Source of the DNA: Opitutus sp. GAS368
Lineage (GTDB): Bacteria; Verrucomicrobiota; Verrucomicrobiia; Opitutales; Opitutaceae
Direction: 5' to 3'
Assembly (NCBI GenBank): GCA_945903545.1
Contig: CAMDOO010000013.1
Location: 1 to 49,625, forward strand
Length of the DNA stretch: 49,625 bases
The notes beneath the pieces are model-generated. The model saw nothing but the letters and a program-made list of their open reading frames with translations. It made no database searches and was not told where the DNA came from. The position numbers and the translations under genes are program-made. This document shows, one piece after another, positions 3,928 to 49,215 of this stretch (position 1 is its first letter; each line of letters begins with the position of its first letter).

Positions 3928-3978
3928 GTAGCTGGCCTCGCTGAGGCCGGCTGACCGGGGTCGACGACCCCGGCTGCA
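3928..3978. repeat. GTAG-headed palindrome (REP-like), CTGGCCTC family
   Basis: GTAG is followed by hairpin CTGGCCTC-GCT-GAGGCCGG and then hairpin CCGGGGTCG-AC-GACCCCGG, ending CTGC. A closely related copy is at 13257-13312. It sits in the 97-bp gap between the aldehyde dehydrogenase and the next gene and may attenuate read-through. Confidence 0.75.
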
Positions 3979-4001
3979 ATTTCAACTGACCCGCTTCCCT
4001 C

Positions 4002-4817
4002 ATGACCGGGATCGACCCCTTCCGCACCCGCGACGCGGTGCCCGATTTCGACCGCTATGTGGCGCAATATGTCGCCCGTAGCGCCGTCACCCGGGCCACG
4101 CTCCGTTCGCAGCGTGACATCCCCTATGGCGACGCTCGTTCCGAGCAGCTCGACCTTTTCTTTCCCGCCGCCCCCTCCGGACCGGCGCCGGTGCATTTGT
4201 TCATTCATGGCGGCTATTGGCGCGCGTGGGCGAAGGAGGACTTCTCCTTCATCGCTGACACCGTCACCACCGCCGGCGCCATCGCCGCGATCATGGACTA
4301 CGACCTGATGCCCGCCGTCCGCATGGCGACCATCGTTCACCAGGTCCGTCGCGCCGCCCAATGGCTCGCCGCGCACGCCCCGGGCTTTGGGGGTGATCCG
4401 ACGCACCTGACCATCTCCGGCCACTCCGCCGGCGCCCATCTCTGCTGCTTTCTGCTCAATCCGCCGGTGGTGCCGATCCAAGCCGCCCTGCTCGTCAGCG
4501 GCGTCTACGATCTCAAGCCGCTGCAATCCTCGTTCCTGCAGCCTGAAATCGGCCTCACTGACGACGAAGTGGCCCGCTACTCGCCGCTGCATGCCGCCCA
4601 CGCCGTCGGCACGCCCACCACCATTCTCGTCGGCGAGCACGAAACCGTCCCCTTCCACGATCAGGCCGCGGCACTTGCCCGACACCTGCGCACCGCGCCC
4701 GTCACGATCCTGCCCGACGCCAATCACCTGAGTGCCGTGCTCGACCTCGGCACGCCTACCACCCAGGCGGCCGGGGTCCTCACGCGGATGATCGAGGGCA
4801 CGGGCATCCCGATCTGA
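4002..4817 (+). CDS. Alpha/beta hydrolase, kynurenine-formamidase-like
   Basis: A 271-residue cytoplasmic alpha/beta hydrolase. HGGYWRAW (residues 70-77) is the oxyanion-hole motif of the HSL/BD-FAE type seen in kynurenine formamidases and carboxylesterases. GHSAGAH gives Ser142 as nucleophile, and DANHLSAV near the C-terminus supplies the catalytic His. There is no signal peptide. Same strand as the three upstream genes but separated by a REP-like palindrome, so co-transcription is uncertain. The substrate could be an N-formyl amide or an ester; tryptophan-pathway partners are not nearby. The stop codon lies inside a short AT-rich repeat. Confidence 0.88.
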   Translation: MTGIDPFRTRDAVPDFDRYVAQYVARSAVTRATLRSQRDIPYGDARSEQLDLFFPAAPSGPAPVHLFIHGGYWRAWAKEDFSFIADTVTTAGAIAAIMDYDLMPAVRMATIVHQVRRAAQWLAAHAPGFGGDPTHLTISGHSAGAHLCCFLLNPPVVPIQAALLVSGVYDLKPLQSSFLQPEIGLTDDEVARYSPLHAAHAVGTPTTILVGEHETVPFHDQAAALARHLRTAPVTILPDANHLSAVLDLGTPTTQAAGVLTRMIEGTGIPI

Positions 4818-4840
4818 AATCTGAGAGCTGAAATTTGAGA
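4812..4840. repeat. AT-rich ATCTGAAAT-type dispersed repeat
   Basis: Overlapping copies of ATCTGAAAT and CTGAAATTTGA begin at the stop codon of the hydrolase gene. The same motif set recurs at 6948-7005. Base composition is far more AT-rich than the surroundings. Confidence 0.6.
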
Positions 4841-4922
4841 ATCCCACGGAGCCAAGCCGAACTCACGGTGAATTCATCGCCGCTTCATCCTCGCTTCGCG
4901 GGGCGGTGCCGTCCTCGCTGCC

Positions 4923-5411
4923 ATGCAAGAACCCAACATTAAAAGCGGCTCCGCCCTATTCCTTCAGAGTGTCGTGGTGCTCATCGCTCTGGGCACGCTC
5001 GCGCTCATGCTCTGGGAGCCGCACCTTGAGGGCCGGAATGCCCACGCCACCACCTTCGAGATCTACTTCAAGGATCCCTTCCTGGCGTATGTGTATGCGG
5101 GCTCCATTCCGTATTTCGTGGCGCTCCATCGGACCTTCGGGCTGTTCGGGGACCTCAGGCGAAAGGGGACCTATTCGCAGGTAACCGTGGATGCCTTGCG
5201 CGCCATCAAGCGATGCGCGATCACCGTGATCGGTTTCGTGGCGGGAGCGGTCGTGATCATTCTGCTGACGGGCGACCCGGACGACCGCCCGGCAGGGATA
5301 TTCATGAGTCTCCTCGTTACCTTGACGGCAAGCGGCGTCGCGACCGCGGCGGCGGTGTTCGGCCGGAATCTGCAGAAGGCCTTGGACCGGCCCGCGGGCG
5401 GCCGCGTCTGA
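4923..5411 (+). CDS. DUF2975 family membrane protein
   Basis: A 162-residue inner-membrane protein with four predicted membrane segments at about residues 11-31, 51-72, 97-116 and 124-146. The layout and the GIFMSLLVTLTASGVATAAA segment fit the DUF2975 family, whose function is unknown; members often sit next to small HTH regulators, but none is visible here. ATG 4923 gives the best N-terminus, while the alternative ATG at 4906 is in another frame with no hydrophobic pattern. It stands alone between the hydrolase and an exported esterase. A 12-bp sequence, CACGGTGAATTC, flanks the gene at 4864 and 5460. Confidence 0.82.
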   Translation: MQEPNIKSGSALFLQSVVVLIALGTLALMLWEPHLEGRNAHATTFEIYFKDPFLAYVYAGSIPYFVALHRTFGLFGDLRRKGTYSQVTVDALRAIKRCAITVIGFVAGAVVIILLTGDPDDRPAGIFMSLLVTLTASGVATAAAVFGRNLQKALDRPAGGRV

Positions 5412-5625
5412 GGGGTGGGAAAGGCGCGCCGAAGAGGTTGGAGGAAATGCACCTTAAACCACGGTGAATTCCCGAAGCCCGGAGCGAAATATATAGGGGT
5501 GGGGCAGGGCTGGCGGCTTTGACTTCCGAATCTGTCGCCCGCCACCATTTGCCACACATCCCCCGCCAACCGAACCTCAGCTGGGTTCGGCTGCGATTAT
5601 TCCTAACTCGAAAGGAAATCACACC

Positions 5626-6858
5626 ATGAGCCGTCTCACCCGCATTCCCCATTGTCTCATTCTCTCGGCGGCTCTCTTGATGCCGGCGATTTGTTTGCAG
5701 GCGCAGCCCGCGGCGCCGGCTGCCGGCCGCGGCGCAGCCCCCGCCAACCTGCCCGGCGCCACCGCCGAGCAGAATAATGCCGTTACGCAAATGAACTCCG
5801 GATTGGCGAACCTGGCCGCGGCCGCCACCACCGCCCGCACCGATCTCGCCAAGGCGAGCCTCCAGCTTCCAATCAATCCGAACGACATCCGGGCGAAGGC
5901 CGAAGCTCTCGGCAGCGCGGAGAGCGCCCTCGCCGGGGCCCGCTCCGATGGCTTTGCCGTGCTGCAGGCGTCGGCGAACAAGCTCAACGCCGCGCAGGTC
6001 CAGGCGCTCGTAAGGCCTCCGGCGCCCGCGGGCGCCGGAGGCGGACTGAACACCGCGGAAGCGGTAGCCCCCGAGGAAGGCATGGACAAGTATCCGGTGC
6101 CGCCGGAGGGGTTCAATGTCGCGCGCGACAACATTCCGCATGGCGAGGTGAACATCGTCGAGTACGACTCCAAGACGCTGGGGCTGCGCCGCATGCTGCG
6201 CGTTTACACGCCCCCGGGCTACAGCGCGGATCGCAAGTATCCGGTGCTCTATCTCCAGCATGGCCTGGGCAACACCAGCACCGAATGGACCCAACGGGCG
6301 CGTGCCCCAATCATCATCGACAACCTGCTGGCCGATAAAAAAATCGTGCCGTTCATCATCGTCTTCCCGAGCGGGAATGCGACGGCGGTGCAGGGCGACG
6401 AAAAGCAAGGTGACCGCACGCAGGAGTCCTACGGGCAGCCCTACACGGACGACTTGCTGAAGGAGATCATCCCCTTCGTCGACTCCCACTATTCAGTCTA
6501 TACGTACCGCGATCACCGCGCCATCGGCGGAATGTCGATGGGGAGTGGCCAGACCCTGAACATCGGCCTGACCCATCTCGACCTGTTCAACTGGATCGCC
6601 TCGGTTGCCGCGGCCCCGAACATGAAGAAGCCGGTTTCCGATCTCATTCCCGATCCGGCCGCCGTCAACAAGTTGAAGCTCTTCTGGCTCGCCTCCGGTA
6701 ACCACGATTCCCTGTTCCTCCAAAACACCCTGGTCATGCACAATTACCTGAAGGAAAAGGGAATTTCGCATATCTGGCGCGTGGACAGCAATGGCCACGA
6801 CACCGGCGTCATGAGCGCCAACCTGTATCATTACGCCCAGCTGCTCTTCAAGGAGTAG
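5626..6858 (+). CDS. Exported esterase with N-terminal helical module
   Basis: This 410-residue protein has a Sec signal peptide (residues 1-26, ending LQA) and an Ala/Pro/Gly-Arg linker. A predicted helical module covers 46-129, followed by a putative-esterase domain (esterase D/feruloyl-esterase type) at about 160-410. Catalytic residues are visible: GGMSMGSG with Ser304, Asp361 in SGNHDS and His391 in NGHDTG. The first module aligns with residues 57-142 of the dehydrogenase at 20413-23565 and is not a domain I recognise. The start is well supported by AAGGAAA about 10 bp upstream. A strong terminator follows. It probably deacylates polysaccharide esters in the periplasm; the substrate is inferred from the family only. 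Confidence 0.9.
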   Translation: MSRLTRIPHCLILSAALLMPAICLQAQPAAPAAGRGAAPANLPGATAEQNNAVTQMNSGLANLAAAATTARTDLAKASLQLPINPNDIRAKAEALGSAESALAGARSDGFAVLQASANKLNAAQVQALVRPPAPAGAGGGLNTAEAVAPEEGMDKYPVPPEGFNVARDNIPHGEVNIVEYDSKTLGLRRMLRVYTPPGYSADRKYPVLYLQHGLGNTSTEWTQRARAPIIIDNLLADKKIVPFIIVFPSGNATAVQGDEKQGDRTQESYGQPYTDDLLKEIIPFVDSHYSVYTYRDHRAIGGMSMGSGQTLNIGLTHLDLFNWIASVAAAPNMKKPVSDLIPDPAAVNKLKLFWLASGNHDSLFLQNTLVMHNYLKEKGISHIWRVDSNGHDTGVMSANLYHYAQLLFKE

Positions 6859-6882
6859 GGGAACCAACTCACCCAGCCAAAA

Positions 6883-6910
6883 CCCTCGGAAGCGATTCCG
6901 AGGGTTTTTT
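6883..6910 (+). terminator. Rho-independent terminator
   Basis: Stem CCCTCGGAA (6883-6891) pairs with TTCCGAGGG (6896-6904) around a GCGA loop and is followed by six T. It lies 24 bp after the esterase stop codon. Confidence 0.93.
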
Positions 6911-6947
6911 GTTGGGCTGAGGCCAAGGGGTTGGACACCTGGACCCC

Positions 6948-7005
6948 ATCTGAAATTTGAAATCTGAAATGCCCCATCTGAAATCTGAGATTTCAAATTT
7001 CAGAT
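6948..7005. repeat. AT-rich inverted repeat, ATCTGAAATTTGAAATCT family
   Basis: An 18-nt arm ATCTGAAATTTGAAATCT (6948-6965) has an exact reverse complement at 6988-7005, with further ATCTGAAAT copies between. It is strongly AT-rich in a GC-rich window. A related stretch is at 4812-4840. No coding potential. Confidence 0.75.
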
Positions 7006-7158
7006 TTCTGATTCGGTTCCTGACGCGGGACGAGGCCAGGTAGGACTCAAGGTTGGGACGGAGGGAGCACTAGACCCCATGGCGACGACGGGGCCGGCGA
7101 CTTATGATCGGCCGCAGCCCAGTCGGCGCGCGCATCTTCCGGAAAACTCCTGTCCAAA

Positions 7159-7332
7159 ATGAAACCACCAGCCGTTCCAGAACCCAAGATGGACCTCGCC
7201 AAGGATCTGGCGGTCTTCGAGCGCCTCCCCGCGAAGACCAAGGAGTTGGAGCTGCTGCAGGCCCGGGCGGAAAAAGCGACCGGCCTGGAAAGTGCCGCCC
7301 TCAACCTGCTCATCCGCGACAAGACCACCTGA
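7159..7332 (+). CDS. Small hypothetical protein
   Basis: A 57-codon frame with ATG 7159 and TGA 7330-7332. It has genome-like codon use and a helical, charged sequence: KTKELELLQARAEKATG in the middle and LNLLIRDKT at the end. No signal peptide or membrane segment. I do not recognise a family. The lack of a clear ribosome-binding site and the short length keep confidence low. It could be a small cytoplasmic protein or a chance frame. Confidence 0.4.
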   Translation: MKPPAVPEPKMDLAKDLAVFERLPAKTKELELLQARAEKATGLESAALNLLIRDKTT

Positions 7333-7432
7333 GTCCATTGGCCTTGGCGGGCCGCCGCGCGATTGGACCGAGAAAAGAAACCCAGGAACTTCAAGGCGCC
7401 GGCGGTCTCACCCGCCCGCAAGCGGTCGAGGC

Positions 7433-7990
7433 TCACTCCGCCTTCGGCGCGCTGAAGCTCTTGCTGTAGAACCCGGACCGGTCGAAGCAGCAGACCCGCC
7501 GCTTCCCCTTGGCGAGCATGTCGCAGGCCCCGGCGATCCGGCTCGCGCGCGTTTTCTCCGACTTGGCGGAGATGATCCAGTGGATCCAGTCGGTGCGCGC
7601 GCCGACCGTAAGGTCCGCCCACCCCGCCCGCGCCTTCGGGGCGGCCGCGAGGGCCTGCTGGAGATCGGCCGGCACCGTGGGTTCCCGGTCCGAGTGGGCG
7701 AGTTCCAACGTGACAGTGTCGCCGGCCGTGGCGCCCGCAGCGGCGCCCAGCTTCCGGCTCACCTTGAGCCAGTGACTCTTCTGGCCATCCGGATCCAGCG
7801 CGGCCTCAAACGGGGCGCCGTTGAGCGTGCCTTCGACCAAAGCGAGGCCCCGCGAGGGGAGCTGCGCACTGGCAGCCTTGGGCAGGACGAGAAAGGTCCA
7901 CGCTTCACCCGGTGCGTTCCCCGCCGGCCGGTGAAGGGTCGCGCTGAAGCGGATCCTGGCAGAGGTCTTGGGCATACTGCGCGGGATCAT
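7433..7990 (-). CDS. YdeI/OmpD-associated family protein with DUF1905
   Basis: A 185-residue cytoplasmic protein. The N-terminal half (residues 8-95) resembles the DUF1905 barrel (RIRFSATLHR, HWLKVSRKLGAAAG, GDTVTLEL). The C-terminal half resembles the YdeI/OmpD-associated region (PADLQQALAAAPKARAGW, TDWIHWIISAKSEKTRASRI). Members are annotated as bacteriocin-protection or stress proteins without a settled reaction. The ATG at 7990 overlaps the TGA of the TIR gene (ATGA), which fixes the start and implies translational coupling. Confidence 0.85.
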   Translation of the reverse strand: MIPRSMPKTSARIRFSATLHRPAGNAPGEAWTFLVLPKAASAQLPSRGLALVEGTLNGAPFEAALDPDGQKSHWLKVSRKLGAAAGATAGDTVTLELAHSDREPTVPADLQQALAAAPKARAGWADLTVGARTDWIHWIISAKSEKTRASRIAGACDMLAKGKRRVCCFDRSGFYSKSFSAPKAE

Positions 7991-8778
7991 TTTCCCGCAT
8001 CCTGCGGGGCGATTATTTTGAGGTTGCGGGAGGGATCGGGGTCGGGCGGTCGCGGGCCTGTGCCGCCGGAGACGAACATCAGGAAGCGGATGAGGAGGAA
8101 GATCGTGGCCAGGACCTGCGCCCAGCGCGGCAACCGGTGCCAGAGCACGTCAATCATCCGCCCACCCCAGACCACGAGGTCGTAGATGAAACGCTCCCGG
8201 TGCCCTTTTTCCGGAAACGGTGGAAACACGGGGAACGGATGCTCCCGGGCCCCTCCGGCCGGCTTGGCCGCGGTCCTCTGCGCCTCACGCGCCGCGCGCT
8301 CGGGATCCCGTGGCTGGTGTCCGGTGGCAAACTCCGCCACCAGCCGTTCCGCCATCGCGGTGAGCGCGGGGTTCTCGCGGCCGTCGGGACACTGCGTCCA
8401 GTGGACGGAGAGGAATTTCTCGGGCACCCGCGCCGTCCGCTCCGACGTGGCGTCGATGACCACGGGGACGAGGAACGTGACATCGTCGGCCATGTCGAGG
8501 TTGCGCTCGACCCCCAGTCGCCACTCGCGGCGGAAGTAACCCTCCCGGCGCGTCTCGGTCGACGACGAGATGATCGGCATGAAGTAGGTGCAGGTGCGGA
8601 TCTGTTGCCGGATCTTCGCATCCCACGCATCGCCACCGGTCAGCTCCTCCTCGTCGAGCCAGACCTCGAGGCCGGCCCTGGCCAGCGTCTCGCGAATCGT
8701 CCGCGCCGCCGGGCGGTCCGCCGAGGCGTAACTGAGGAAGACCGAGGGCCGCGCGGGTGTCTCCGGCTCGCTGGACAT
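7987..8778 (-). CDS. TIR domain protein with C-terminal membrane segment
   Basis: A 263-residue protein with an N-terminal TIR domain (about 10-150). SVFLSYASADR is strand A and VWLDEEELTGGDAWDAKI the BB-loop region. SSSTETRREGYFRREW contains Glu85, the likely NADase catalytic glutamate. A Pro-rich linker (about 175-195) leads to a hydrophobic segment WAQVLATIFLLIRFLMF near residues 221-240 and a short tail, so the TIR domain is probably anchored at the membrane facing the cytoplasm. Bacterial TIR proteins cleave NAD+ or make NAD-derived signals, often in phage defence. No recognisable sensor domain is present in this protein. It forms a four-base overlap with the YdeI-like gene downstream. 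Confidence 0.9.
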   Translation of the reverse strand: MSSEPETPARPSVFLSYASADRPAARTIRETLARAGLEVWLDEEELTGGDAWDAKIRQQIRTCTYFMPIISSSTETRREGYFRREWRLGVERNLDMADDVTFLVPVVIDATSERTARVPEKFLSVHWTQCPDGRENPALTAMAERLVAEFATGHQPRDPERAAREAQRTAAKPAGGAREHPFPVFPPFPEKGHRERFIYDLVVWGGRMIDVLWHRLPRWAQVLATIFLLIRFLMFVSGGTGPRPPDPDPSRNLKIIAPQDAGK

Positions 8779-8830
8779 CGCGGGCGAAGCTCGCCACTGG
8801 CGCAGGGCGAGTCAAGGCGGGCGCGGCGTG

Positions 8831-8928
8831 GGTCCTGCCTCCTTTTCACGTAATAAGTGAAAAGTGCGCAACGCGCCCCCAGGGCTACTCCCAGCATTTC
8901 ACGTATTACGTGAAAAGGAGGCAGGACC
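8831..8928. repeat. 98-bp element with perfect 25-bp terminal inverted repeats
   Basis: The left arm 8831-8855 (starting GGTCCTGCCTCCTTTTCACG) has an exact reverse complement at 8904-8928. Each arm also contains a smaller palindrome: TTTTCAC-GTAATAA-GTGAAAA at 8844-8864 and TTTCACGTA-T-TACGTGAAA at 8898-8916. It lies between two minus-strand genes, upstream of the TIR gene, and is not followed by a T-run. It looks like a miniature mobile palindrome or a regulatory cruciform. No coding sequence is inside. Confidence 0.9.
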
Positions 8929-8954
8929 GGGGCGTGAGGGCACGCGCCTCTGCC

Positions 8955-8990
8955 AAAAAAAGATCGGCGCCGGGAAACCCGGCGCCGATC
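8955..8990 (-). terminator. Rho-independent terminator of the minus-strand esterase gene
   Basis: A 13-bp perfect stem (8962-8974 with 8978-8990; arm GATCGGCGCCGGG) has a three-base loop. On the minus strand it is followed by seven T (8955-8961). It lies 23 bp after the stop codon at 9014. Confidence 0.93.
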
Positions 8991-9013
8991 GGAATCGAAA
9001 GCGGAGCGACCGC

Positions 9014-10309: not shown

Positions 10310-10546
10310 GGAGGGTGGGGGTGTAAGGTTCGGGGTTGGGAAAGCCGGTTCCGTCAGGACGGGCGACGGGGTGGCGGCAGGAAGGGACGGAAGTTGATTG
10401 CAGGGGAACGACCGGGTCCAGCATGGCATGGCGGCTTCTCCGGCGTCTTGCACCGCCTGACCCAATATTTTGTCTGCCGGCGCCAAGCCAATTCAGGCTG
10501 AATCGACCTGGCCGAAGGCGCCGGATTTTGAATCCCAAGACCATCC

Positions 10547-10590
10547 GGGCTCCGCGCCCTCTGCGGCCCTTGCGTGCCAAACGGTTTGAA
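10547..10590. repeat. Dispersed CTCTGCGG..GCGTGCCAAACGG repeat
   Basis: The segment TGCGTGCCAAACGGTTTGAA, preceded by GCGCCCTCTGCGGCCCT, recurs with few changes at about 31780-31820 (GTGTGCCAAACGGTTTGAA) and 34112-34145. All copies are intergenic. Its role is unknown. Confidence 0.6.
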
Positions 10591-10602
10591 TTAGGCCGGG
10601 CC

Positions 10603-11361: not shown

Positions 11362-11559
11362 GGCTTGATTCCGCCGGGAAGTGGCGGCGGAGCAAATCAC
11401 TTTGGGCGCAGTCCTGATTTGGTCGGGCGGAGTCCACGCCCTTCCGGCGGGAAGATTATCCAAGCCAGAACACTGCTTGGCTTGGCTCCGCATTTAGCTC
11501 CGAGCGAAATCTGGAAACATCTCGCCCCGCGACCTGTAGTATAGCCGATTACGTTCCCG

Positions 11560-13215: not shown

Positions 13216-13256
13216 GTGGGCGAAGGGTTTGAAATGCAGGAGCCTGCTTGAGCTTT

Positions 13257-13312
13257 GTAGCTGGCCTCGCTGAGGCCGGCGGATCGGATCCGGGGTCAAC
13301 GCCCCCGGCTAC
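13257..13312. repeat. GTAG..CTAC palindrome pair (REPIN-like), CTGGCCTC family
   Basis: It begins GTAG with hairpin CTGGCCTC-GCT-GAGGCCGG, continues to CCGGGGTCAACGCCCCCGG and ends CTAC. The first 23 bases equal those of the copy at 3928. Convergent gene ends flank it. Confidence 0.8.
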
Positions 13313-13324
13313 ATCCTGGGTTCT

Positions 13325-13347
13325 GTAGTCCGGGTGTCTTCACCCGG
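13325..13347. repeat. GTAGTCCGGGTG-type REP
   Basis: GTAGTCCGGGTGTCTTCACC then CGG: a GTAG head followed by a hairpin CCGGGTG-TCTT-CACCCGG. Same family as 14890, 29871 and 41369. Confidence 0.8.
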
Positions 13348-13379
13348 AGATCCCGCAGTTTGCGGCGCCCGGCTGGCGG

Positions 13380-14889: not shown

Positions 14890-14945
14890 GTCGGGGTGCG
14901 CCCACCCGGAGATGATCGTTTTCCGGGTGAGGGCCCCCGGACTAC
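14890..14945. repeat. REPIN-like pair, GTAGTCCGGGTG family
   Basis: Two inverted copies: GTCGGGGTGCGCCCACCCGG at the left (head degenerated from GTAG) and CCGGGTGAGGGCCCCCGGAC ending in CTAC at 14945. It lies between the CotH gene and gntK. Confidence 0.75.
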
Positions 14946-23648: not shown

Positions 23649-23706
23649 GTAGGGCGGTGCCCCGTCCGCGCTGTCTGCCTCGGCGGCGACGGAGTCACCG
23701 ACCTAC
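23649..23706. repeat. GTAGGGCGGTG-type REPIN
   Basis: GTAGGGCGGTGCCCCGTCC at the left and GACGGAGTCACCGACCTAC at the right form an imperfect inverted pair with GTAG and CTAC ends. A related piece (GGCGGAGACGGAGTCGCCACC) is near 41430. Confidence 0.7.
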
Positions 23707-23770
23707 CGGCATACACCCGTCGATCAGGCGAACCTCAACCGGTGTCCGTCCGTGATCGGGCCGGCGCGGC

Positions 23771-23889
23771 TAGAGCAGTTTTAAGAATACTGTAGCCGGG
23801 GTCGTTGATCCCGGTGCCTTGGGTTCACGAATGAAGGATGGGAAACCGGGGCCAACGACCCCGGCCACAGAAATCCTTAAACCGCTCTA
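23771..23889. repeat. Nested palindrome: REP pair inside a TAGAGC..GCTCTA frame
   Basis: The outer arms are TAGAGCAGTTTTAAG and, inverted, CTTAAACCGCTCTA. Inside are GTAGCCGGGGTCGTTGATCC (23792 onward) and an inverted partner CCGGGGCCAACGACCCCGG near 23846. The whole element lies between the dehydrogenase terminator and the convergent cupin gene. The composite structure suggests a REPIN within, or part of, a larger miniature element. Confidence 0.75.
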
Positions 23890-23896
23890 GCCTTCC

Positions 23897-24445: not shown

Positions 24446-24505
24446 TGCAGGAGCGGCTTTACGCCGCGATTCTGGCGATCATTCGCGGGATAAACCCGCT
24501 CCTAC
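24446..24505. repeat. GTAGGAGCGG-type REPIN
   Basis: A left hairpin GGAGCGGCTTTACGCCGCGA and a right hairpin TCGCGGGATAAACCCGCTCC with terminal CTAC. Near-identical copies occur at 31069 and 35365. Confidence 0.85.
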
Positions 24506-29870: not shown

Positions 29871-29893
29871 GTAGTCCGGGTGCCCTCACCCGG
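29871..29893. repeat. GTAGTCCGGGTG-type REP, single
   Basis: GTAGTCCGGGTGCCCTCACC then CGG, identical in layout to the copy at 41369. It lies 60 bp before the DMT transporter start. Confidence 0.8.
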
Positions 29894-29954
29894 GAATTAC
29901 CCTTGGCGCGGGTCTTGCGACGGGTGCGGCCGGGCTGTCACGCTCGACCCTTTG

Positions 29955-31041: not shown

Positions 31042-31068
31042 GCCCTGCCGGCAGGCCGTCCGGCCCTG

Positions 31069-31125
31069 TCGGAGCGGCTTTACGCCGCGATTCCGACAAC
31101 TATCGCGGGATAAACCCGCTCCTAC
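31069..31125. repeat. GTAGGAGCGG-type REPIN
   Basis: GGAGCGGCTTTACGCCGCGA on the left and TCGCGGGATAAACCCGCTCC with terminal CTAC on the right. Arms are identical to those at 24446. Confidence 0.85.
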
Positions 31126-33944: not shown

Positions 33945-34191
33945 GTAGGGCTGGCCCGCTGGGCCGGCCGCGATGGTCGCGGATTGGTTTCACGCAGAGA
34001 AGGCCGCCTGCCGCAGGCGGCCAAGGCAGAGGGCGCGGAGGTAAAATCCTGTCCGGTCGGGCGCGTCACTTCGTGACCGCCGCGATGTGCCTATCCGTGT
34101 TTTGGTCCGAATCCTCCGCGCTCTCTGCGGTCCCTGCGTGCAACCAATCCGGGATCGAAAGATCGCGGCCGGCTCGTCGAGCCAGCCCTAC
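33945..34191. repeat. GTAGGGCTGG-type palindromes flanking a dispersed repeat
   Basis: GTAGGGCTGGCCCGCTGGGC (33945) and the inverted GGCTCGTCGAGCCAGCCCTA ending in CTAC (34191) are 200 bp apart. Between them lie GCCGCCTGCCGCAGGCGGC and a CTCTGCG-type dispersed repeat (34112-34145). No gene is present in this gap. Confidence 0.65.
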
Positions 34192-35364: not shown

Positions 35365-35423
35365 GTAGGAGCGGGTTAATCCCGCGAATGAGGTCGGGGA
35401 TCGCGGCATAAAGCCGCTCCTAC
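35365..35423. repeat. GTAGGAGCGG-type REPIN
   Basis: GTAGGAGCGGGTTAATCCCG and the inverted TCGCGGCATAAAGCCGCTCC with CTAC end. It lies between the GH105 and DUF4861 genes, in opposite orientation to the copies at 24446 and 31069. Confidence 0.88.
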
Positions 35424-36682: not shown

Positions 36683-36752
36683 GTAGGAGCCTGCTTGCAG
36701 GCGATGTTTCGTTCGAGTGGTCGATCCGGATCGCCTGCAAGCAGGCTCCTAC
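36683..36752. repeat. GTAGGAGCCTGCTTGCAGGC-type REPIN
   Basis: GTAGGAGCCTGCTTGCAGGC and its exact inverted copy (GCCTGCAAGCAGGCTCCTAC at the right end) enclose 30 bp, GCGAT at one inner edge matching ATCGC at the other. A single half-copy, GCAGGAGCCTGCTTGAGC, is near 13236. Confidence 0.9.
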
Positions 36753-37632: not shown

Positions 37633-37705
37633 TGTGAACATTACCCCTTTCGCTTGGCTGTGCGGCTGGATTGGCGGATCGCTCAATCCCGCGAGGATAT
37701 GGCTT

Positions 37706-37807
37706 GGCCGCAAAAAGGCGCAGAAGGCGCAAAAACGGATTCCGAGTGATCGGATCCCCGCCGGATCGGATGGCTCGCTTTTGCGCCTTCTGCGCCTTTT
37801 TGCGGCC
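37706..37807. repeat. Perfect 29-bp inverted repeat at the DUF4450 start
   Basis: The arm 37706-37734 (GGCCGCAAAAAGGCGCAGAA onward) is exactly reverse-complemented at 37779-37807, with a 44-bp loop that itself contains GGATCCCCGCCGGATC-type palindromes. The right arm overlaps the likely start and signal peptide of the next gene. It is similar in style to dispersed GGCGCAGAAGGCGCA repeats and is not a terminator. Confidence 0.9.
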
Positions 37808-40800
37808 ATCCTTCCGCAGCTTGGTTACGATCTCGCGGCCCTTGCCGTCATGCTCAGTGCCTTGGCAGGCACGAGGCTTCCCGCTCAGGTGCCGGCGGCC
37901 CTGAGGGTCACGCCGAACCTGGCCGACCGGATCGAGCACCCGCTGCGTTACCGTCCGGACGGCGCGGACTTCGTGATCGAGAACGGGGCGGAGTTCTTCA
38001 ACCGCCCGCTCTACGGCGGGAACACCGGCTTCCGCGTCGATGCCGGGGACAAGCCCGAGTTCACGCTCTACCTGCCGGGCCGCGGCGGGAACCTGCGGCT
38101 CGGCTTCAAGACGGCCGCGGGCACGAAATGGCTCTTCGAGGCCGCGGGCATCACGTCCCGCTACCGGCCGGGCTCCATGCTCTATGAGTTGCGCGATCCG
38201 CTGCTCGGCCCCGCCGGGGTCCTGAAGGTCACGGTGCTGGCGCTGGCCGACACCGAGGGCTTGGTCGTCCGCGCGGAATTGCTGGGCGCCACGGGGCCGG
38301 TCGAGCTGGTCTGGGCCTATGGCGGTGCGAACGGGCAGCGCGGCGTGCGTGATGGCGACATCGGCACCGAGCGCGTGCCGATCAGCGAGTATTTCGAGCT
38401 CCAGCCCGAATTCACCCGCGGCAACACCTTTGCGCTGGCGGAGCGGACCTTCACCCTGCGCGCCGCACCGGCGACCATCGTCGGCCTGATGCCGGCGGGG
38501 GCGGTGCTCGCCGTGGCGGCCGCCAGCCGCTGGTCCTCCTGGGAGGAACTCCTCGCCTCCTCGGCCGGGCCGGCGCCGGCACTGCCCGTGGTGATCGGCC
38601 GCGTGGCCCTGCGAGTCGACGAGCCGTTGTTCCTCGGCCTGCAGCGCACCGCGGGTGCGGCGAATGCGGCCAGCACGCTGCCGCCGGCCCATGCCCCCGA
38701 CCAACTCCCGGCGGTCTTTACGGCCACGGAGGAGCATTTTCGCGGTCTCCGCGAAAATGTGCGGGTGGACACCCCCGACCCGTTCATCAATGCCGCCGTC
38801 GGCGCGCTCAACGTCGCGGTCGACGCAGTCTGGGACGAGGCGCAGGGCGCGGTGATGCACGGGGCCGTCGCCTGGCGGCAGCGCCTGCTGGGCTGGCGCG
38901 GACCGTATGCGCAGGACGCGCTGGGCTGGCACGACCGGGCGCGGCGGCATTTCGATTACTGGGCGACGCGCCAGAACCTGAATCCAATCCCGGACGCGCT
39001 GCCGCCGCCGGACGAGGCGAGCAACCTCGCCCGCTCGGAGGCCGCGCTCCACAGCAACGGCCACATGTCGAATTCGCACTACGACATGAACGCGGTCTAC
39101 ATCGATGCGCTGCTCCGCCACCTGCAGTGGACCGGCGACGTCGAGTATGCGCGCAAGATGTGGCCGGTGATCGAGCGCCACCTCGCGTGGGAGAGGCGCA
39201 TGTTCCGCCGGCCGTTCGGCCCGAACGGGCTGCCGCTTTACGAGGGCTACGCCATGATCTGGGCGAGCGACGACCTCGGCTACAACGGCGGGGGTGTCAC
39301 GCATGCCTCGGCCTACAATCTCATGCACCACGCGGCCGCCGGGCAGCTCGCCCGCATGCTGGGGCTCGACCCGCGTCCCTACGACCTGGAGGCCTACGCC
39401 ATCGACCGCGCGATGCACGAGCAGCTTTGGCTCCCCGACCGCGGCTGGTTTGCCGAGTACAAGGACCTGCTGGGCAACCAGGCGGTGCATCCGGCCGCCG
39501 CGCTCTGGACGTTTTATCACACGCTTGATTCCGGGCTGACGACACCCTTCGAGGCGTGGCAGATGACGCGCCAGGTCGACACCCAGATTCCGCACCTGCC
39601 CGTGCGCGGTCCGGGTGTGCCGACCGACAGTCGTTACGAGGTTTTGGGCACGAGCAACTGGATGCCCTACTCGTGGTCGATCAACAACGTCGTGATGGGC
39701 GAGATGGTCCACACGGCGCTCGGGTACTGGCAGGCCGGGCGCCACGAGGAGGCGTTCCGCCTGACGAAGAGCGCGCTGCTGGCCAGTATGTACCTGGGCA
39801 TCTCCCCCGGGAACGTCGGCTCGATGAACTATCTCGATGTCTACCGGCGCGAATCGCAGCGCGACTTTGCCGATGGGGGCGGCGTGCTGTCGCGCGCGCT
39901 GGTCGAGGGCCTGTTCGGCCTGAGCCCGAATCTCTTCACCGGCGACCTGCGCGTCTCGCCGGGCTTTCCCGCGGAGTGGGACCGCGCCAGCCTGAAGCAT
40001 CCGGAGGTCGACTTCTCGTTCACCCGCAAGGGGGACACCGACACCTACATCATCGAGCCGCACTTCGGGACGACCCTCTCCCTGACGCTGGTCCTACCCG
40101 CCCGGCGCGAGGGTATTGCCGAGGTGAACATCAACGGTCGCTCTGACAGCTGGAGGACGGTGGACGATGCCGTCGGCGGGCCGCGCCTCGTGTTCATGAC
40201 GGCGGGCGCGGAGCGTTTCGAGGTCGCGATCACCTGGAACGGCAAACCGATCGCTCCCGCTCCGGCTGCGACGAGCGTGGCGCAGGGCGCCACCGCCACC
40301 ATCTTGCTGCCAGGAGTCGAACTGCTGCGCCTGGCGGACCCGCAGCACGTTTTGGACGGGGCCACGGCGGTTCCGGGGGGATTCCTGGGGGAAGTGGTTG
40401 GAACCCCGGGGGCGCGGACGGTTTTTGCCCGCGTCCGGCAGGACACGCTGGATTGGTGGATGCCGGTGAGCCTCGACGTGCAGCCGCGTGCCGCACCGGC
40501 GACTGCGCCGGTCGACTGGAGCCGTCCGCTCGCCGCGGGCAGCCGGCTTGAACCGGTTGATCTCACGGCGCAGTTCAACGACCGCGTCACCCAGATTTTC
40601 AAGAACGAGTACCGCTCGCCGCGTTCGCCTTATGTTTCGCTCGCCATCCCCAAGCAGGGCATCGGCGCCTGGGCCGGGCACGTGAACGCCACGGCGGAGA
40701 TCGACGACCGTGGGCTCCGGGCGTCGCCGCGCGACGGCGCGGGCCGCTTTGTGCTGCCCAACGGCGTGCCCTTTGCCACGCCGGGGGCGGGGGAGGCGAA

Positions 40801-41368: not shown

Positions 41369-41426
41369 GTAGTCCGGGTGCCCTCACCCGGAGATGATCG
41401 ATTCGGGGTGGGGGCACCCCGACTAC
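41369..41426. repeat. GTAGTCCGGGTG-type REPIN
   Basis: GTAGTCCGGGTGCCCTCACC with CGGAGATGATCG, then an inverted, slightly changed copy ending GACTAC. The left half equals the copies at 29871 and 13325. Confidence 0.85.
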
Positions 41427-41536
41427 ATATGGGCGGAGACGGAGTCGCCACCCTGCCGGGATAGGACCACGACCGGCGGTTTGCCGGACATCGAACCACG
41501 GCTGGAGTTTTTCCCGAAACGGCCCAATCTGGGTCC

Positions 41537-42445: not shown

Positions 42446-42449
42446 GACC

Positions 42450-42767: not shown

Positions 42768-42881
42768 TCCCGGTCTGGATTGTCCCGGGATTGCCGTGGC
42801 CGCGAGCGTGGGCGAGCGGTCTGCCTTCCGTTTGCCCACGCTCGCAGCCACCGGGAAAAGCCGCCGCGCCAGAAAACGAGT

Positions 42882-44516: not shown

Positions 44517-44783
44517 GGGATAAGGAGGAGAGAATATTTTTTTGCCGGACTGCGTGACTGCGCAGGTTGGTCCCTGCGTTCGCCGGTCCAAAAGATAGGG
44601 GCTCGCGGAATGGTTCCTGCAAGCCCGGGACCGCGAATGGCCCGCGGTTGGGTTTGGTTTTAACCCGTCCGTCACATTCGGAGCGAAACCGGCCGATCCA
44701 TAGGGACGGGTGGTGGTGCCGCGGGTGGAGAGGGCGCAGATGTCAGTCTTGACTCCCGGCCGCTGGACGAGGGTGCTCGCGGG

Positions 44784-45149
44784 GTGTGCGCGTCGGGGAA
44801 CACCCATGAATTCAAAATCGGCCCCGGCCTGGACCGGGCCGGGTTGGCCGATGTACTCGGCCGGCAGGCGGAGGCGCTGGCCGGGATCCTGATCCCGGAC
44901 CTGCATAGGCTGGATGCCGCCGCCGCTTACGAACCGGGGACGCTGCGGGTCGAGGCGGTCGAAGCCACGGAGCGGCCGGAGACCTACCGGCTCCACTTCC
45001 GCTTCGAGTGGTCCGCCCAGCATGGCTGCAGTGACTGGAGCTGCCGTGACCAGGAACGGCAATCCGCCCTGTTCCGCCTGGTGGGCGATGCGGCGGTTTT
45101 CGAGGTGCCGGCCGATCCCGGGGAACGCACCACCCGGGACGAGTTCTAG
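44784..45149 (+). CDS. Hypothetical protein
   Basis: 121 residues from GTG 44784. HEFKIGPGLDRAGLADVLGR and ETYRLHFRFEWSAQHGCSDW look like a compact alpha/beta cytoplasmic domain. No signal peptide. I do not recognise the family. It overlaps no convincing gene on the other strand. The start is uncertain, since the ATG at 44806 is in another frame. Confidence 0.55.
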   Translation: MCASGNTHEFKIGPGLDRAGLADVLGRQAEALAGILIPDLHRLDAAAAYEPGTLRVEAVEATERPETYRLHFRFEWSAQHGCSDWSCRDQERQSALFRLVGDAAVFEVPADPGERTTRDEF

Positions 45150-45213
45150 CAACGCGGCATCGTTACGGTGCGCAGCTTGTTTTGAGCGCGGTGATCCGGT
45201 TGGCTCCGTGGCC

Positions 45214-45951
45214 ATGAGCTCCCAAGGCCGTCCATCGTGCAAGCTGGCGGAAGGGTGGAGGCTTCTGTTGGCACTCGGCGGGGCCCTGCTCCTCGCGGCG
45301 TGCGAGAGCAGTAATCTTTCCATTCCCGCGGTGCCGTCCAACCCCGGGCCAGGATCGGTCCCCTATCATCTGCTGAGCGTCGAGCCGGCCGAGCCCACCG
45401 AGGCCGCCCAGCACCGGCAGATCGTCGGCTTCGTGCGGGCGGCGCTGGCGGCGGGGGGCATGCACGAGGTGGCCCGCGCGGCCGCCGCCGAGGTGGTGGT
45501 CAGTCTCGATTATCAAGTCGGCCCGCCCCACCAGGGCCCGGTCAGCGAGACCGAGCCGATGTACGAGGTCACTCCCGGCAAGATGGTCGACCAGTCCGTG
45601 GCTGTGGGGATCAACACCGCGGGCAGCACGATCTACGAGATGCGGAAGGTGAAGGAACCGGACGTGGTGACCTACCACGGGGAGCGGCCTGTCGCTTACC
45701 TCCGCACGGTCTATGAGAAGCGCTTGCGGTTGTCCGCCCGGTCGCTGGATGGCATCGCTGCCGACCGGCCCGCCCGCGAACGGTGGAGCATCGAGTTGCT
45801 CGCTGAGGGCCCGAACCGGAGCCTCCGCAAAATGCTCCCGGTCCTGACCGGTCCCGGCCGCCCGTACCTCGGCAGGGAAGCCGAGGGCCCGGCGATCCTG
45901 CGGATCAATGACGACACGGGCGCGATCGAGTCGATCGAGAGTTCCCTGTAA
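45214..45951 (+). CDS. Hypothetical lipoprotein
   Basis: 245 residues with a lipoprotein signal ending LLLAAC (Cys30). The mature part has an early helix with two acidic patches (EPTEAAQHRQIVGFVRAALA), beta strands VVVSLDYQVGPP and STIYEMRKVKEPDVVTYHGE, and a C-terminal LRINDDTGAIESI. The overall pattern resembles DUF4136-like periplasmic lipoproteins but I cannot match it firmly. It is convergent with the RarD-type gene, with a 9-bp gap. Confidence 0.75.
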   Translation: MSSQGRPSCKLAEGWRLLLALGGALLLAACESSNLSIPAVPSNPGPGSVPYHLLSVEPAEPTEAAQHRQIVGFVRAALAAGGMHEVARAAAAEVVVSLDYQVGPPHQGPVSETEPMYEVTPGKMVDQSVAVGINTAGSTIYEMRKVKEPDVVTYHGERPVAYLRTVYEKRLRLSARSLDGIAADRPARERWSIELLAEGPNRSLRKMLPVLTGPGRPYLGREAEGPAILRINDDTGAIESIESSL

Positions 45952-45960
45952 GCGGCGGCC

Positions 45961-46857
45961 TCACCGCCGCTGCACGACCAGGTTGTCGAACGTGTAGAGC
46001 ACGAGGCCGGCCCAGATCAGACCGAAGCTGATCAGCCGGTCGGGCGTGAACGGCTCGTGGTACAGGGCGAGCGCGAGGACAAACTGGACGGTGGGCGCGA
46101 TGTACTGGAGCAGGCCCAGGGTCGAAAGCCGGATCCGCTGCGCGCTGTAGGCGAAGAGCAGGAGCGGGACCGCGGTGACGATCCCCGAGCTGAGCACAAG
46201 GAACTGCTCACCCGCGGCGACGCGGCCGAGCGCCCCGGTGCCGAGATGGTGCTGCCAGGCGATGAAGCCGATGGCCAGGGGCGCGAGCAGGAGGGTCTCC
46301 ACGGCCAGGCCGACGAGCGGGGCGAGGGGCGACTGCTTGCGCATCAGGCTGTAGACACCCCAGGACGCCGCCTCACCCAGCGCGATCCACGGGGGATGGC
46401 CGAGCTGCCAGATCAGGATCCCGACCCCGAGGCCCGCCAGGGCGATCGCGGTCCACTGCAGCGGGCGCAGGTGTTCGTGGAGAACAAGCCGGCCGGTCGC
46501 GACGTTCACAAGCGGCACGAGGAAATATCCCAGGCTGCACTCGATGACGTGGCCGGTGTTCACGCCCCAGACGTAGATCAGCCAGTTCGTCGTCAGCATG
46601 GTCCCGCTGAGAAAGTTCAGGCCGACGGCCCGCCACCCGTGCAGCGCGGCGCCCACGCCGGCCAGCCCGCCCTGCGCGGCCAACACCAGGCCCACGAAGA
46701 CCAGCGACCAGAGGTGCCGGTGCGCGATGAGCTCGACCGCGTTGATGCCGGCCAGCTGCTTCCAGAAGATCGGCACGAGTCCCCACAGGAAATAGCAGAT
46801 CGAGGCGGCGATGACGCCGCGTTCCTGCGCCCGGGTGATCGGAGCTTGGTGGGACAA
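45961..46857 (-). CDS. rarD: RarD-type EamA permease
   Basis: 298 residues with ten membrane segments. RGVIAASICYFLWGLVPIFW, AHRHLWSLVF, GWRAVGLNFLSGTMLTTNWL and IYVWGVNTGHVIECSLGYFL are close to RarD, a DMT-superfamily permease of unknown substrate. LALYHEPFTPDRLISFGLIW is the usual end. The start is given as TTG 46857 (SHQAPITRAQERG), since it yields the family length and no ATG is near; the in-frame ATG at 47160 would overlap the divergent cupin gene. Confidence 0.85.
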   Translation of the reverse strand: MSHQAPITRAQERGVIAASICYFLWGLVPIFWKQLAGINAVELIAHRHLWSLVFVGLVLAAQGGLAGVGAALHGWRAVGLNFLSGTMLTTNWLIYVWGVNTGHVIECSLGYFLVPLVNVATGRLVLHEHLRPLQWTAIALAGLGVGILIWQLGHPPWIALGEAASWGVYSLMRKQSPLAPLVGLAVETLLLAPLAIGFIAWQHHLGTGALGRVAAGEQFLVLSSGIVTAVPLLLFAYSAQRIRLSTLGLLQYIAPTVQFVLALALYHEPFTPDRLISFGLIWAGLVLYTFDNLVVQRR

Positions 46858-47040
46858 GGGATGGATGGCTGGCGCCGGCCGGGAAGTCCCCGGGCGGGAG
46901 GCCCGCAGTTGGACGGGTTTGGGGCCGGCGACCAAGCCCGGATGCGCTGATGACGCCCGCGGAGCCGGCGCGACCGGGGCGCAATCTCCCGCCACGTAAT
47001 TCCGGATTGCGGTGTTCCGCGGCGTTTCAACAATGGGCGC

Positions 47041-47433
47041 ATGTCCAAAGTCATCGGTAATACTGTCAAACCTGTCGACGACGTGAAATGCCCGGATGGC
47101 GTCGTGGACCTTTCGACCCTGACTCCCGGCGGAGAGAACGGCATGAGCGTCTTCGTCCACTACAATGGCTCAACCGACCAGTTGAAGGCCATGTGCACCG
47201 GGATGGCGGTCCTGCAGCCGGGCGTGAGCCCGCATCCGATCCACCAGCATCCGGAGGAGGAATTCCTCATCATCGCCAGCGGCACCGGTGAGATCCAGTG
47301 CGATGGCAAGAACACCAACGTGGGGCCCGGCGCCGTGATGTACTGCGCCGGCAACATCTGGCACGGGATCACCAACACGGGCAAGGTGCCGCTGACGTTC
47401 TACTGGTCGAAGTGGATGGCGAAGGGCTTCTAA
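47041..47433 (+). CDS. Cupin domain protein
   Basis: 130 residues, a single cupin barrel without signal peptide. The first motif PHPIHQHPEEEFLIIASGTG supplies the metal ligands (two His, Glu and the later His), and GAVMYCAGNIWHGITNTGKV is the second motif. Substrate unknown; small cupins act as isomerases, dioxygenases or sugar binders. It has a good start (ATG 47041) and sits alone between a divergent transporter and a DUF1080 gene. Confidence 0.88.
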   Translation: MSKVIGNTVKPVDDVKCPDGVVDLSTLTPGGENGMSVFVHYNGSTDQLKAMCTGMAVLQPGVSPHPIHQHPEEEFLIIASGTGEIQCDGKNTNVGPGAVMYCAGNIWHGITNTGKVPLTFYWSKWMAKGF

Positions 47434-47509
47434 GCGGTTGCGGCCGGCCGCGGGTGACAGCCGAACCGGGGCTTCCCTTGAAGCCCGAGGGCGGACACGC
47501 TGACGGACT

Positions 47510-48223
47510 ATGAAACGCCTTCGATTCCACTTGCTCGCAGGTTTGGTTTTGGCCTCCGCCGCTTCCGGCTTGTTCGCGGCGCCGGCGGAAAATCAACTCA
47601 CGGCCGAGGACAAGGCCGCGGGCTGGCGGCTCCTCTTCGACGGCACGACCCTCGCCGGCTGGCGCGGCTACGGGCTCCCGGGCCTGCCTGCCGCCGGTTG
47701 GGAAATCCGCGATGGCCTGCTCAAGACCGTGCCCGGTGTCCGGGGCACGGAGCTCATCACGACGGATAAGTTCACCGACTTCGAGTTCAGCTGGGAGTGG
47801 CGCATCGCCGAGGGCGGCAACAACGGCGTGAAGTATTTTGTCACCGAGGCCCGCCGCTCCGCCCCCGGCCACGAGTACCAGATGATCGACGATGCGCGGC
47901 ACCCGGACGGGCGGCGCGGTCCGCTCTACCAGACCGCGGCGTTCTACGACGTGCTGATCCCAGCGGCCGACAAGCCCCTGCGCCAGCCCGGGGAATGGAA
48001 CGTCTCGCGCCTGGTTGTGCGTGGCAACCGCGTCGAGCACTGGCTCAACGGCCGCAACGTCCTCTCCTACGAGGCGGGGAGCGACGAGGTGAAGGCGGGC
48101 GTGGCGCGGAGCAAATTCAAGGATCAGCCCGGTTTCGGCGACAAGATCACCGGCCATCTCATGCTCACCTACCACGCGGACGAATGCTGGTTTCGGAACC
48201 TGCGGATCCGCGAGCTCAAGTAG
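47510..48223 (+). CDS. DUF1080 (3-keto-disaccharide hydrolase-like) exported protein
   Basis: 237 residues: a signal peptide (LLAGLVLASAASGLFAAPA) and one DUF1080 domain with the full signature set: GWRLLFDGTTLAGWRGY, WEIRDGLLKT, FTDFEFSWEWRIAEGGNNGV, HEYQMIDDARHPD, GEWNVSRLVVRGNRVEHWLN and GHLMLTYHADECWFRNLRIR. It is more typical than the copy at 36795. The substrate is likely a disaccharide or glycan (inference). Confidence 0.93.
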   Translation: MKRLRFHLLAGLVLASAASGLFAAPAENQLTAEDKAAGWRLLFDGTTLAGWRGYGLPGLPAAGWEIRDGLLKTVPGVRGTELITTDKFTDFEFSWEWRIAEGGNNGVKYFVTEARRSAPGHEYQMIDDARHPDGRRGPLYQTAAFYDVLIPAADKPLRQPGEWNVSRLVVRGNRVEHWLNGRNVLSYEAGSDEVKAGVARSKFKDQPGFGDKITGHLMLTYHADECWFRNLRIRELK

Positions 48224-48248
48224 TTGGGTCCGGCCCGGGGGAGTAACC

Positions 48249-48797
48249 TTACCGCCCGGGGCTGGTAGCGGGGACCACGGGCAGCGGAACGGCCCGGCGG
48301 ATGTAAGCCTGCATGCCCCGCTGGAACGGTGAGATGCCGTAACGCCTGGCCTCCGCCATGGCTTCGTCGACGGACCAGCCCTGCCGGGTGATGCGGTAGC
48401 AGGCGATGACGGTCCCGGTGCGGTCGGCGCCGTGCTGGCAATGGACGAGCACCGGCCCGGGCGATTGCTCGATGAGATCCAGCACGCGGGCGACCTGCTC
48501 GTCGGTGGGGGCGCTGAACCCGGCGAAGGGAACCGAGACGTACAGGATGCTATGCGCGCGGGCGAAAACCGCCTCGGCCGGATCGATGTCGCCGGGCAGC
48601 TGCAGGTTGATGATTGTTTTCACCCCGCGCCGCGCGAGCGCCTCGAGCGCCGGCTTGTCGGGCTGCGCGCTGCGGTACAGGTGGGGGGTGACCGCGCCGA
48701 AGTTCGGAATGGCGTCGGTCGCCGGCACGCCCCGCGGCGACGTGGTGCATCCGCTGCCCCAAACAAGGGCGAAGAGCAGGAGGAGGCCGGTTCGCAC
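48249..48797 (-). CDS. Dual-specificity-type phosphatase lipoprotein
   Basis: 182 residues. The lipoprotein signal ends WGSGC (Cys17). The phosphatase P-loop is HCQHGADRTG, with Cys120 nucleophile and Arg126, and GVKTIINLQLPGDIDPAE before it fits the DSP/Tyr-phosphatase fold. Extracytoplasmic targeting is unusual for such enzymes, and phosphoinositides or phosphotyrosine could be substrates. It shares the convergent end with the DUF1080 gene. Confidence 0.9.
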   Translation of the reverse strand: MRTGLLLLFALVWGSGCTTSPRGVPATDAIPNFGAVTPHLYRSAQPDKPALEALARRGVKTIINLQLPGDIDPAEAVFARAHSILYVSVPFAGFSAPTDEQVARVLDLIEQSPGPVLVHCQHGADRTGTVIACYRITRQGWSVDEAMAEARRYGISPFQRGMQAYIRRAVPLPVVPATSPGR

Positions 48798-48833
48798 GGT
48801 AACAGGATGCTTCCGCGGGCGTCCGCGGTCCTC

Positions 48834-49109
48834 CTACCGCAGGGTCGGCACCGGCAGGATCTCGATGAAGACCGCGGTGGCGCCGGTGAGGGCGATGGCA
48901 TCGATCGCCGGGCCGACATCCTTGAGCGAACGGACCTCGGCGGTTTCCGCGGTGAGGCCGACGCGGCAGTTGAAATCCCACCGGCCGAATCCCTCGGGCA
49001 GGGGCTTCCGTCGCTGGCGCCGGACATCCCGGTTCACCTCCTGCCGGATCTTGTCGCGCACGCGCGCATCCTCCCGGGTGGGTGACTGGAGCGGGAAGAG
49101 TCTCTTCAT
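48834..49109 (-). CDS. DUF6172 family protein
   Basis: 91 residues, cytoplasmic. DKIRQEVNRDVRRQRRKPLP then EGFGRWDFNCRVG is the characteristic segment of DUF6172, followed by AEVRSLKDVGPAIDAIALTG and an IEIL end. Function unknown. A standalone gene; the gap to the phosphatase start is 36 bp. Confidence 0.85.
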   Translation of the reverse strand: MKRLFPLQSPTREDARVRDKIRQEVNRDVRRQRRKPLPEGFGRWDFNCRVGLTAETAEVRSLKDVGPAIDAIALTGATAVFIEILPVPTLR

Positions 49110-49189
49110 TTGCCCGGCATGGTTGTCCCCGCGTGGGGCGACACAATGCGAATCAGCGGCCGGCAGTGGGTCAGTTTATCCGGAACAGC

Positions 49190-49215
49190 TTTAGCCGGGG
49201 TCGTTGACCCGGTTC
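49190..49215. repeat. REP-like hairpin AGCCGGGGTCGTTGACCCGG
   Basis: AGCCGGGGTCGTTGACCCGG forms a hairpin (CCGGGTCGTTGACCCGG core) like that at 23792. The T preceding it is TTTAG, so the GTAG head is degenerate. The rest of 49110-49380 shows no gene. Confidence 0.55.

Follow-up and report, generated by a model that had tools for sequence, protein, structure and literature searches.

Does a set of palindromes that share only the tetranucleotide head GTAG, packed between the genes of one bacterial contig, reflect one mobilizing enzyme or several? The contig in question (CAMDOO010000013.1 of Opitutus sp. GAS368; C13, hereafter the window) was analysed over its entire 49,625 bases and belongs to a 3.08-Mb draft genome of 122 contigs with 98.6% completeness. 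A sequence-only reading of the window had likened its palindromes to repetitive extragenic palindromic (REP) elements and had proposed either more than one lineage of REP-associated tyrosine transposases (RAYTs) or one enzyme with relaxed specificity. We found that five short RAYTs of this genome are each bracketed by a different hairpin family, that loop and hairpin architecture follow RAYT kinship, and that the stems of one family keep pairing by compensatory changes. We consider it very probable that the GTAG hairpins are REP elements, mostly arranged as inverted pairs (REPINs), and that every family owes its spread, past or continuing, to a RAYT of its own (TnpA-REP, a Y1 HUH endonuclease).

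One fixed rule (GTAG followed by a perfect stem) called 12 GTAG-headed hairpins in the window, against a mean of 0.48 and a maximum of 2 in 100 dinucleotide shuffles, and the at least twelve palindromes noticed earlier could also be read directly at their listed places. A second rule found seven inverted pairs of 56-70 bp, against a mean of 0.20 and a maximum of 2 in 50 shuffles. In a 450-kb sample of the genome, consisting of the window and 20 further stretches, 44 of 1851 GTAG tetramers (2.4%) headed a 7-bp perfect hairpin, about 8 times the rate over all tetramers (2631 matches in about 0.9 million places, 0.29%); most tetramers ranking near GTAG in this headed-hairpin test are shifts of GTAG, poly-A being another. 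A tetranucleotide test for inverted pairs at REP spacing did not place GTAG among its best eight in the sample or the window (TTTT, AGTG, TTAT, AAAA and others led the list), and was dropped for the headed-hairpin tests because it scored spacing without arm similarity. A rough open reading frame (ORF) model, which leaves 9% of the sampled bases outside ORFs, puts 24 of the 44 headed hairpins in that fraction and 20 inside ORFs. Within the window, the elements at 3928, 14890-14945 and 35365-35423 fall within modelled ORFs that we judged over-extended or wrong, because the true neighbours of 3928 (an aldehyde dehydrogenase and a hydrolase) leave it in a gap, and because in the other two ORFs 192 and 97 residues, respectively, precede the Pfam match.

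Six families (A, B, C, D, E and H) are represented in the window and a seventh, F, elsewhere in the genome. The consensus of family A is GTAG-GA-GCGGS-TTTAY-SCCGC-GA, that of B is GTAG-GA-GCCTGC-TT-GCAGGC-GA, that of D is GTAGTCSGGG-TGYCYYCA-CCCSGA and that of E is GTAGGGYTG....GNN....CRRCC, while F reads GTAGGGGCG..TGTCCYCA..CGCCC and H reads GTAGGGCGG..ACTCCGT..CCGCC; family C has two half types, GTAGCTGGCCTC (C1) and GTAGCCGGGGTC (C2), with a loop that is mostly GNN. The earlier count of five or more families is thereby borne out, but not the statement that they share only GTAG, given that a GA spacer is common to A and B, and a 3-nt loop with G in first position to C and E. A genome-wide search of the kind suggested by that reading located 73 sites of A on both strands, 35 of B (26 exact over all 22 bases), about 62 places of C (61 forward and 62 reverse matches of a near-palindromic pattern), 47 of D, 190 of E, 49 of F and 30 of H (two mismatches allowed). 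With reversed patterns giving 0 matches for every family in this genome, these 30-190 sites per family are far above chance; in other genomes the reversed patterns of E and C gave single matches, so single matches there mean little. Across 57 genomes, this one included, A was found in 15, B in 11, C in 16, D in 2 (this genome and one congener), E in 22, F in 4 and H in 11, and more than 14 E sites were present only in the three genomes of this genus.

Profile searches with PF01797 and NF047646 found no RAYT in the window, as had been stated. In the whole genome, PF01797 detected three Y1 transposases and NF047646 six RAYT-like genes, of which five are short and the sixth, on contig C44, is long and TIRYT-like. 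The five short genes are flanked on both sides by family A (contig C18), B (C46), E (C86), F (C26) and H (C83), each gene being bracketed by its own family and no other. Four of them exceed the NF047646 cut-off of 80 bits (C46 95.1, C18 85.9, C86 85.5 and C26 84.3 bits), and C83 falls under it with 69.3 bits. Their mutual identity is 28-47%, and they are therefore not recent copies of one another. The best-matching solved structure for the short RAYTs is 4er8, annotated TnpArep. The HUH pair and the catalytic tyrosine are kept in RAYTs A, B and E, whereas positions aligned with 4er8 contain DRLH in place of DHLH in RAYT F (the first HUH histidine changed to arginine) and a serine at the catalytic tyrosine in RAYT H. 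RAYTs F and H are probably catalytically dead or impaired, as judged from these residues, although a sequencing error is possible; activity may persist in families A, B and E. In the relative G028, the B-like RAYT L080 also has a serine at the catalytic tyrosine position (FRSIFLNP).

The loci compared comprise 95 RAYT-like ones from this and related genomes, chosen among the matches listed, and 80 named ones, kept as the best 80 of 442 found by an A/B-type protein profile alone; five of the latter were already contained in the set of 95. An NF047646 match is present in 43 of the 57 genomes. By one rule, alike hairpins stand on both sides of 55 of the 95 loci, of 71 of the 80 named loci, and of 41 of the 51 own-and-relative loci with an ORF under 300 and a profile score of at least 125. 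Random places taken from the own genome satisfied the same rule in 0 of 600 cases for the head GT[AG]G and in 2 of 600 for the head G[TC][AG]G, and displaced pseudo-genes did so in 0 of 58. A quick tree of 148 rows, in which many inner forks are open, was built after leaving out the five duplicates, rows with a domain shorter than 85 residues and rows longer than 300 residues without hairpins. RAYTs E, F and H fall in one clade (support 97, 35 rows) and RAYTs A and B in another (support 98, 54 rows), the named rows of which are Verrucomicrobiota and one Kiritimatiellota. Family C flanks RAYTs of relatives (L017, L059 and L162) in a third clade that has no member in the own genome. Thus, five short RAYTs with five different flanking families sit in two separate clades, and the suggestion of more than one RAYT lineage holds: several GTAG hairpin families here do go with several RAYT lineages, the impression gained from sequence being settled by the matching genes. 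A further RAYT locus of G022 (L237) showed no perfect GT[AG]G hairpin of at least 8 bp.

By analogy with published assays, a RAYT would bind the folded single strand and read the GTAG head together with either loop bases, like the Stenotrophomonas and Marinomonas enzymes, or a stem bulge, like the E. coli enzyme. It would cleave beside the hairpin and then move or copy it, probably when replication exposes single strands. If stems mainly need pairing, one family could branch into several stem sequences, and families F and H would be relics because their RAYTs are probably no longer catalytic.

Family E allows the pairing of stems to be followed, with its outer bases fixed by the search pattern. 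Thirty-seven cells changed on both sides (shuffled mean 12.4, with 0 of 500 as high), and 96.8% of cells were paired, compared with 80.1 upon shuffling and at most 51.2 upon sliding. Of 29 halves, 24 have Watson-Crick pairs at all four inner stem positions, which were left free, and show 11 different combinations of them; 28 of the 29 start their loop with G (27 of 30 by a looser rule). According to passages of PMC8266576, the S. maltophilia enzyme likewise requires G as the first loop base; changes in GTAG impair its cleavage, changes of stem blocks have no drastic effect, and a mid-stem mismatch harms cleavage. The agreement between these data and the loop and stem pattern of E supports an address made of head plus loop, as far as sequence patterns can tell. 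We also compared RAYT and hairpin divergence by Mantel tests among 117 RAYTs with hairpins, taking the six or seven central bases as the loop core and setting unlike loop parity to 0.25. Protein identity correlated with loop core (r 0.35), outer stem (0.18) and head-to-centre distance (0.20), all three exceeding all 500 permutations, and common descent of a gene and its flanks contributes to all three. In the E alignment, columns 8 and 22 form a T-G wobble of the lower stem in 17 of 21 distinct halves and T-A in 4; the wobble is perhaps a strand-marking mismatch. The search pattern had itself fixed the T, with only A or G admitted opposite.

Several observations weigh against the view that each family has its own RAYT and that the RAYT reads head and loop. 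Paired hairpins were missing, by the rule used, in 40 of the 95 RAYT-like loci, and profile searches of the own genome found no RAYT flanked by family C or D. G019, a 97% complete draft, contains 98 A, 43 B and about 25 C sites with no RAYT by two profiles; G001 contains 221 E sites, its sole RAYT-like match being long and TIRYT-like; and G043 contains 91 A sites with no A/B-type RAYT by profile A1. Among RAYTs more than 50% identical, loops are as similar as stems (0.65 vs 0.64, then 0.81 vs 0.78), and the baseline for unrelated stems is higher than that for loops (0.40 vs 0.28). Two of the five covariation measures of family E are unremarkable, namely the number of pairs altered on both sides (5, reached in 29 of 500 shuffles) and the pair types (135 of 500). 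In the own genome, RAYTs C46, C86 and C83 are situated less than 2 kb from a contig end, and draft assemblies may break at REPs; absence from drafts is therefore weak evidence. RAYT presence alone was also considered as a predictor of REP abundance, and fails in G019, G001 and G043.

For the two orphan families, the cognate RAYT has most likely been lost or was not assembled. Family C has one or two sites in the congeners G001 and G002 (the latter 75% complete) vs about 62 places here, and so has probably spread in the own lineage, in which case its enzyme would have disappeared, escaped assembly or given way to RAYT E working in trans. None of the 175 RAYT-like loci (170 distinct) contains the D pattern in full, and five of the 175 contain its first 10 bases, once each.

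These orphans leave the most room for one RAYT of relaxed specificity that would move all families, the other RAYT genes being bystanders. C and E have the loop form G-N-N in common, D and F both have a TG.CC.CA-like loop, and trans-mobilization of C and D by the E and F enzymes is conceivable when neither family has its own RAYT here. However, a relaxed enzyme is not needed for A, B, E, F and H, each of which brackets its own RAYT; head spacing, stem length and loop differ among families in step with the RAYT clades; and in relatives the RAYTs flanked by C-type elements belong to a different clade. We regard a single relaxed enzyme as very improbable, with C and D the only families for which this part of the earlier proposal could apply. 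A narrower form of sharing, which we hold as a doubtful but somewhat better candidate, would make head and loop, not the stem, the address of each RAYT. Systems would then be mutually blind by loop class (A TTTAY, B TT, C/E GNN, D/F TG.CC.CA-like, H ACTCCGT), one enzyme would serve several stem families per class, RAYT E would drive orphan C, RAYT F would have driven D, and an enzyme could carry cargo such as that of the composite E elements described below. Our already low estimate of this joint reading was lowered slightly, since close RAYTs resemble one another as much in their stems as in their loops. Strong hairpins lying largely between genes could also be terminators or mRNA 3'-end hairpins kept for expression, their REP likeness being incidental, and passages of a 2013 survey describe many REPs as plausibly transcribed and acting as RNA elements (PMC3733652). 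Yet the identical long copies of B, the GTAG heads, the specific loops and the bracketing of RAYTs are unexpected for terminators, and copy numbers differ sharply between congeners (A 73 vs 7, B 35 vs 1). This is the least credible of the alternatives.

The GA spacer raises the question whether families A and B came from elsewhere. A 2010 paper described GA between GTAG head and palindrome as unique to Pseudomonas/Xanthomonas RAYTs (PMC2817692, as far as its available passages go), and the Luteibacter hairpin GTAGGAGCGCGCTTGCGCGCGAT closely resembles family B, so that recent transfer from Gammaproteobacteria might be suspected. Passages of the 2013 survey further place GTAG-1 repeats, in which an unpaired dinucleotide follows the head, in Thauera and Thioalkalivibrio, and both GTAG-1 and GTAG-2 in Shewanella (PMC3733652). 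In the quick tree, the A/B clade is nested in an older 65-row clade (support 93) that holds all 28 GTAG-GA...GA rows; the other rows of the tree comprise 91 of other form and 29 with no paired hairpin. By record titles, mostly of metagenome-assembled genomes (MAGs), these 28 rows span six phyla: Verrucomicrobiota, Pseudomonadota, Planctomycetota, Myxococcota, Thermodesulfobacteriota and Caldifarciminota. On this tree the GA form switches 9 times, fewer than in any of 300 label shuffles (minimum 19, mean 25.3). The best-matching named loci are mostly from Opitutaceae/Opitutia MAGs, contrary to the gammaproteobacterial setting implied earlier. Recent import of A and B from Gammaproteobacteria is very unlikely, being unsupported by the tree, to which the 80 loci kept contributed no Pseudomonas RAYT. 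The GTAG-GA recognition type is now seen in Opitutia and, with the same reliance on record titles mostly of MAGs, in five further phyla.

The arrangement, in which each RAYT is very probably paired with its own family, is of a known kind, here unusually clear: passages of PMC3733652 (published in 2013) describe multi-family GTAG repeats with repeat-specific REPtrons in species with several GTAG families, among them Opitutus terrae, likewise of the Verrucomicrobiota. Our families A-H may or may not correspond to those of O. terrae. Partners of the O. terrae GTAG-17 and GTAG-19 dimers are described as 1-2 bp apart, while the C1 and C2 stems here are 2-10 nt apart. RAYTs with lost catalytic residues and composite E elements are features of the present genome that do not appear in the passages of that survey. 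The DHxH, WQ and YIxxNP-like motifs are common to the RAYTs here and to TnpA-REP subclass 2.5 (group 3) and subclass 2.7, as described in parts of PMC6006769 and PMC8266576; subclass 2.5 is given there as mostly from Xanthomonads and Pseudomonads and subclass 2.7 as from Cyanobacteria and a few other phyla, in contrast to the Opitutaceae here. The C44 gene (L009) resembles the TIRYT/TIRtron of PMC3733652, in the passages available, in being a long Y1 protein without paired GTAG hairpins, its NF047646 score lying under the cut-off; AAGGGGTTGGGCC-type repeats, in an inverted arrangement seen by eye, and further GGCTCGGCCC-type repeats lie alongside. A literature search for RAYTs and REPs in Verrucomicrobia found only PMC3733652, and searches aimed at REP palindromes of Opitutus or Opitutaceae found no paper. 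Five differently addressed RAYT-REP pairs in a 3-Mb genome offer a natural panel for what domesticated transposases read, and the two RAYTs with lost catalytic residues would show what becomes of a REP family once its enzyme dies.

Within the window, the hairpins listed earlier are real, but not all of their heads are intact; two are single halves and one is a 247-bp composite. Family A is present as pairs at 24447-24505 (left head GCAG, right head GTAG), 31068-31125 (left head GTCG) and 35365-35423, and family B as a pair at 36683-36752 with perfect 24-nt outer arms. Family C has a pair at 3928-3977 (C1 half GTAGCTGGCCTC-GCT-GAGGCCGGC with a C2 half nearby), of which the distal head is a degenerate GCAG so that the pair ends in CTGC, a pair of C1 and C2 halves running from GTAG to CTAC at 13257-13312, and a decayed single half on the forward strand at 49187-49216 that has lost its head. 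A further C pair, with halves from 23792 to 23868, is contained in a longer imperfect palindrome at 23768-23892 whose outer arms start with GGCTAGAGC; a C pair within such GGCTAGAGC-beginning arms was seen in two cases in the 450 kb, the other lying in L052 from about 7385. Family D is represented by single forward-strand halves at 13325-13348 (loop TGTCTTCA, partner decayed) and 29871-29894, by a pair at 14890-14945 with a degenerate left head GTCG, and by a pair at 41369-41426 whose halves differ by one compensated stem pair (TCCGGG/CCCGGA and TCGGGG/CCCCGA). The latter adjoins a reverse-strand half of family H with head GCAG at 41432-41456, and an H pair at 23649-23706 retains the loop ACTCCGT in its right half, its left half being decayed.

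The 247-bp composite at 33945-34191 consists of E halves at 33945-33973 and 34163-34191 around a CACGCAGAG-type palindromic core. Nine E pairs were collected from the 450-kb sample and the own RAYT loci; five measure 60-70 bp and four measure 191-247 bp and enclose such a palindrome (the window element, L047 18212-18420, L051 17697-17891 and L044 12876-13066). A fifth composite, at C86 (L006 from 1663), has its left half intact, contains an F element within the core and is disrupted in its right half. In all five copies the core begins 46-52 nt from the left E head, and cores of this type without a GTAG half in the stretch seen were found in L043 near 6746, L046 near 304 and L047 near 5873. 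The composites may represent cargo or nested insertion.

The window gave no Rfam match at gathering thresholds and no tRNA upon scanning. Other inverted repeats were nevertheless present in it. A 33-nt inverted repeat with 97% complementarity at 37705-37808, near the start of an ORF with a DUF4450 match, is not a GTAG element. A 32-nt inverted repeat, also 97% complementary and containing TTTCACGTATTACGTGAAA, is located at 8831-8928 near the start of the ORF at 8864, and short inverted repeats of ATCTGAAATTTGAAATCTGAAAT type are found at 6948-7013.

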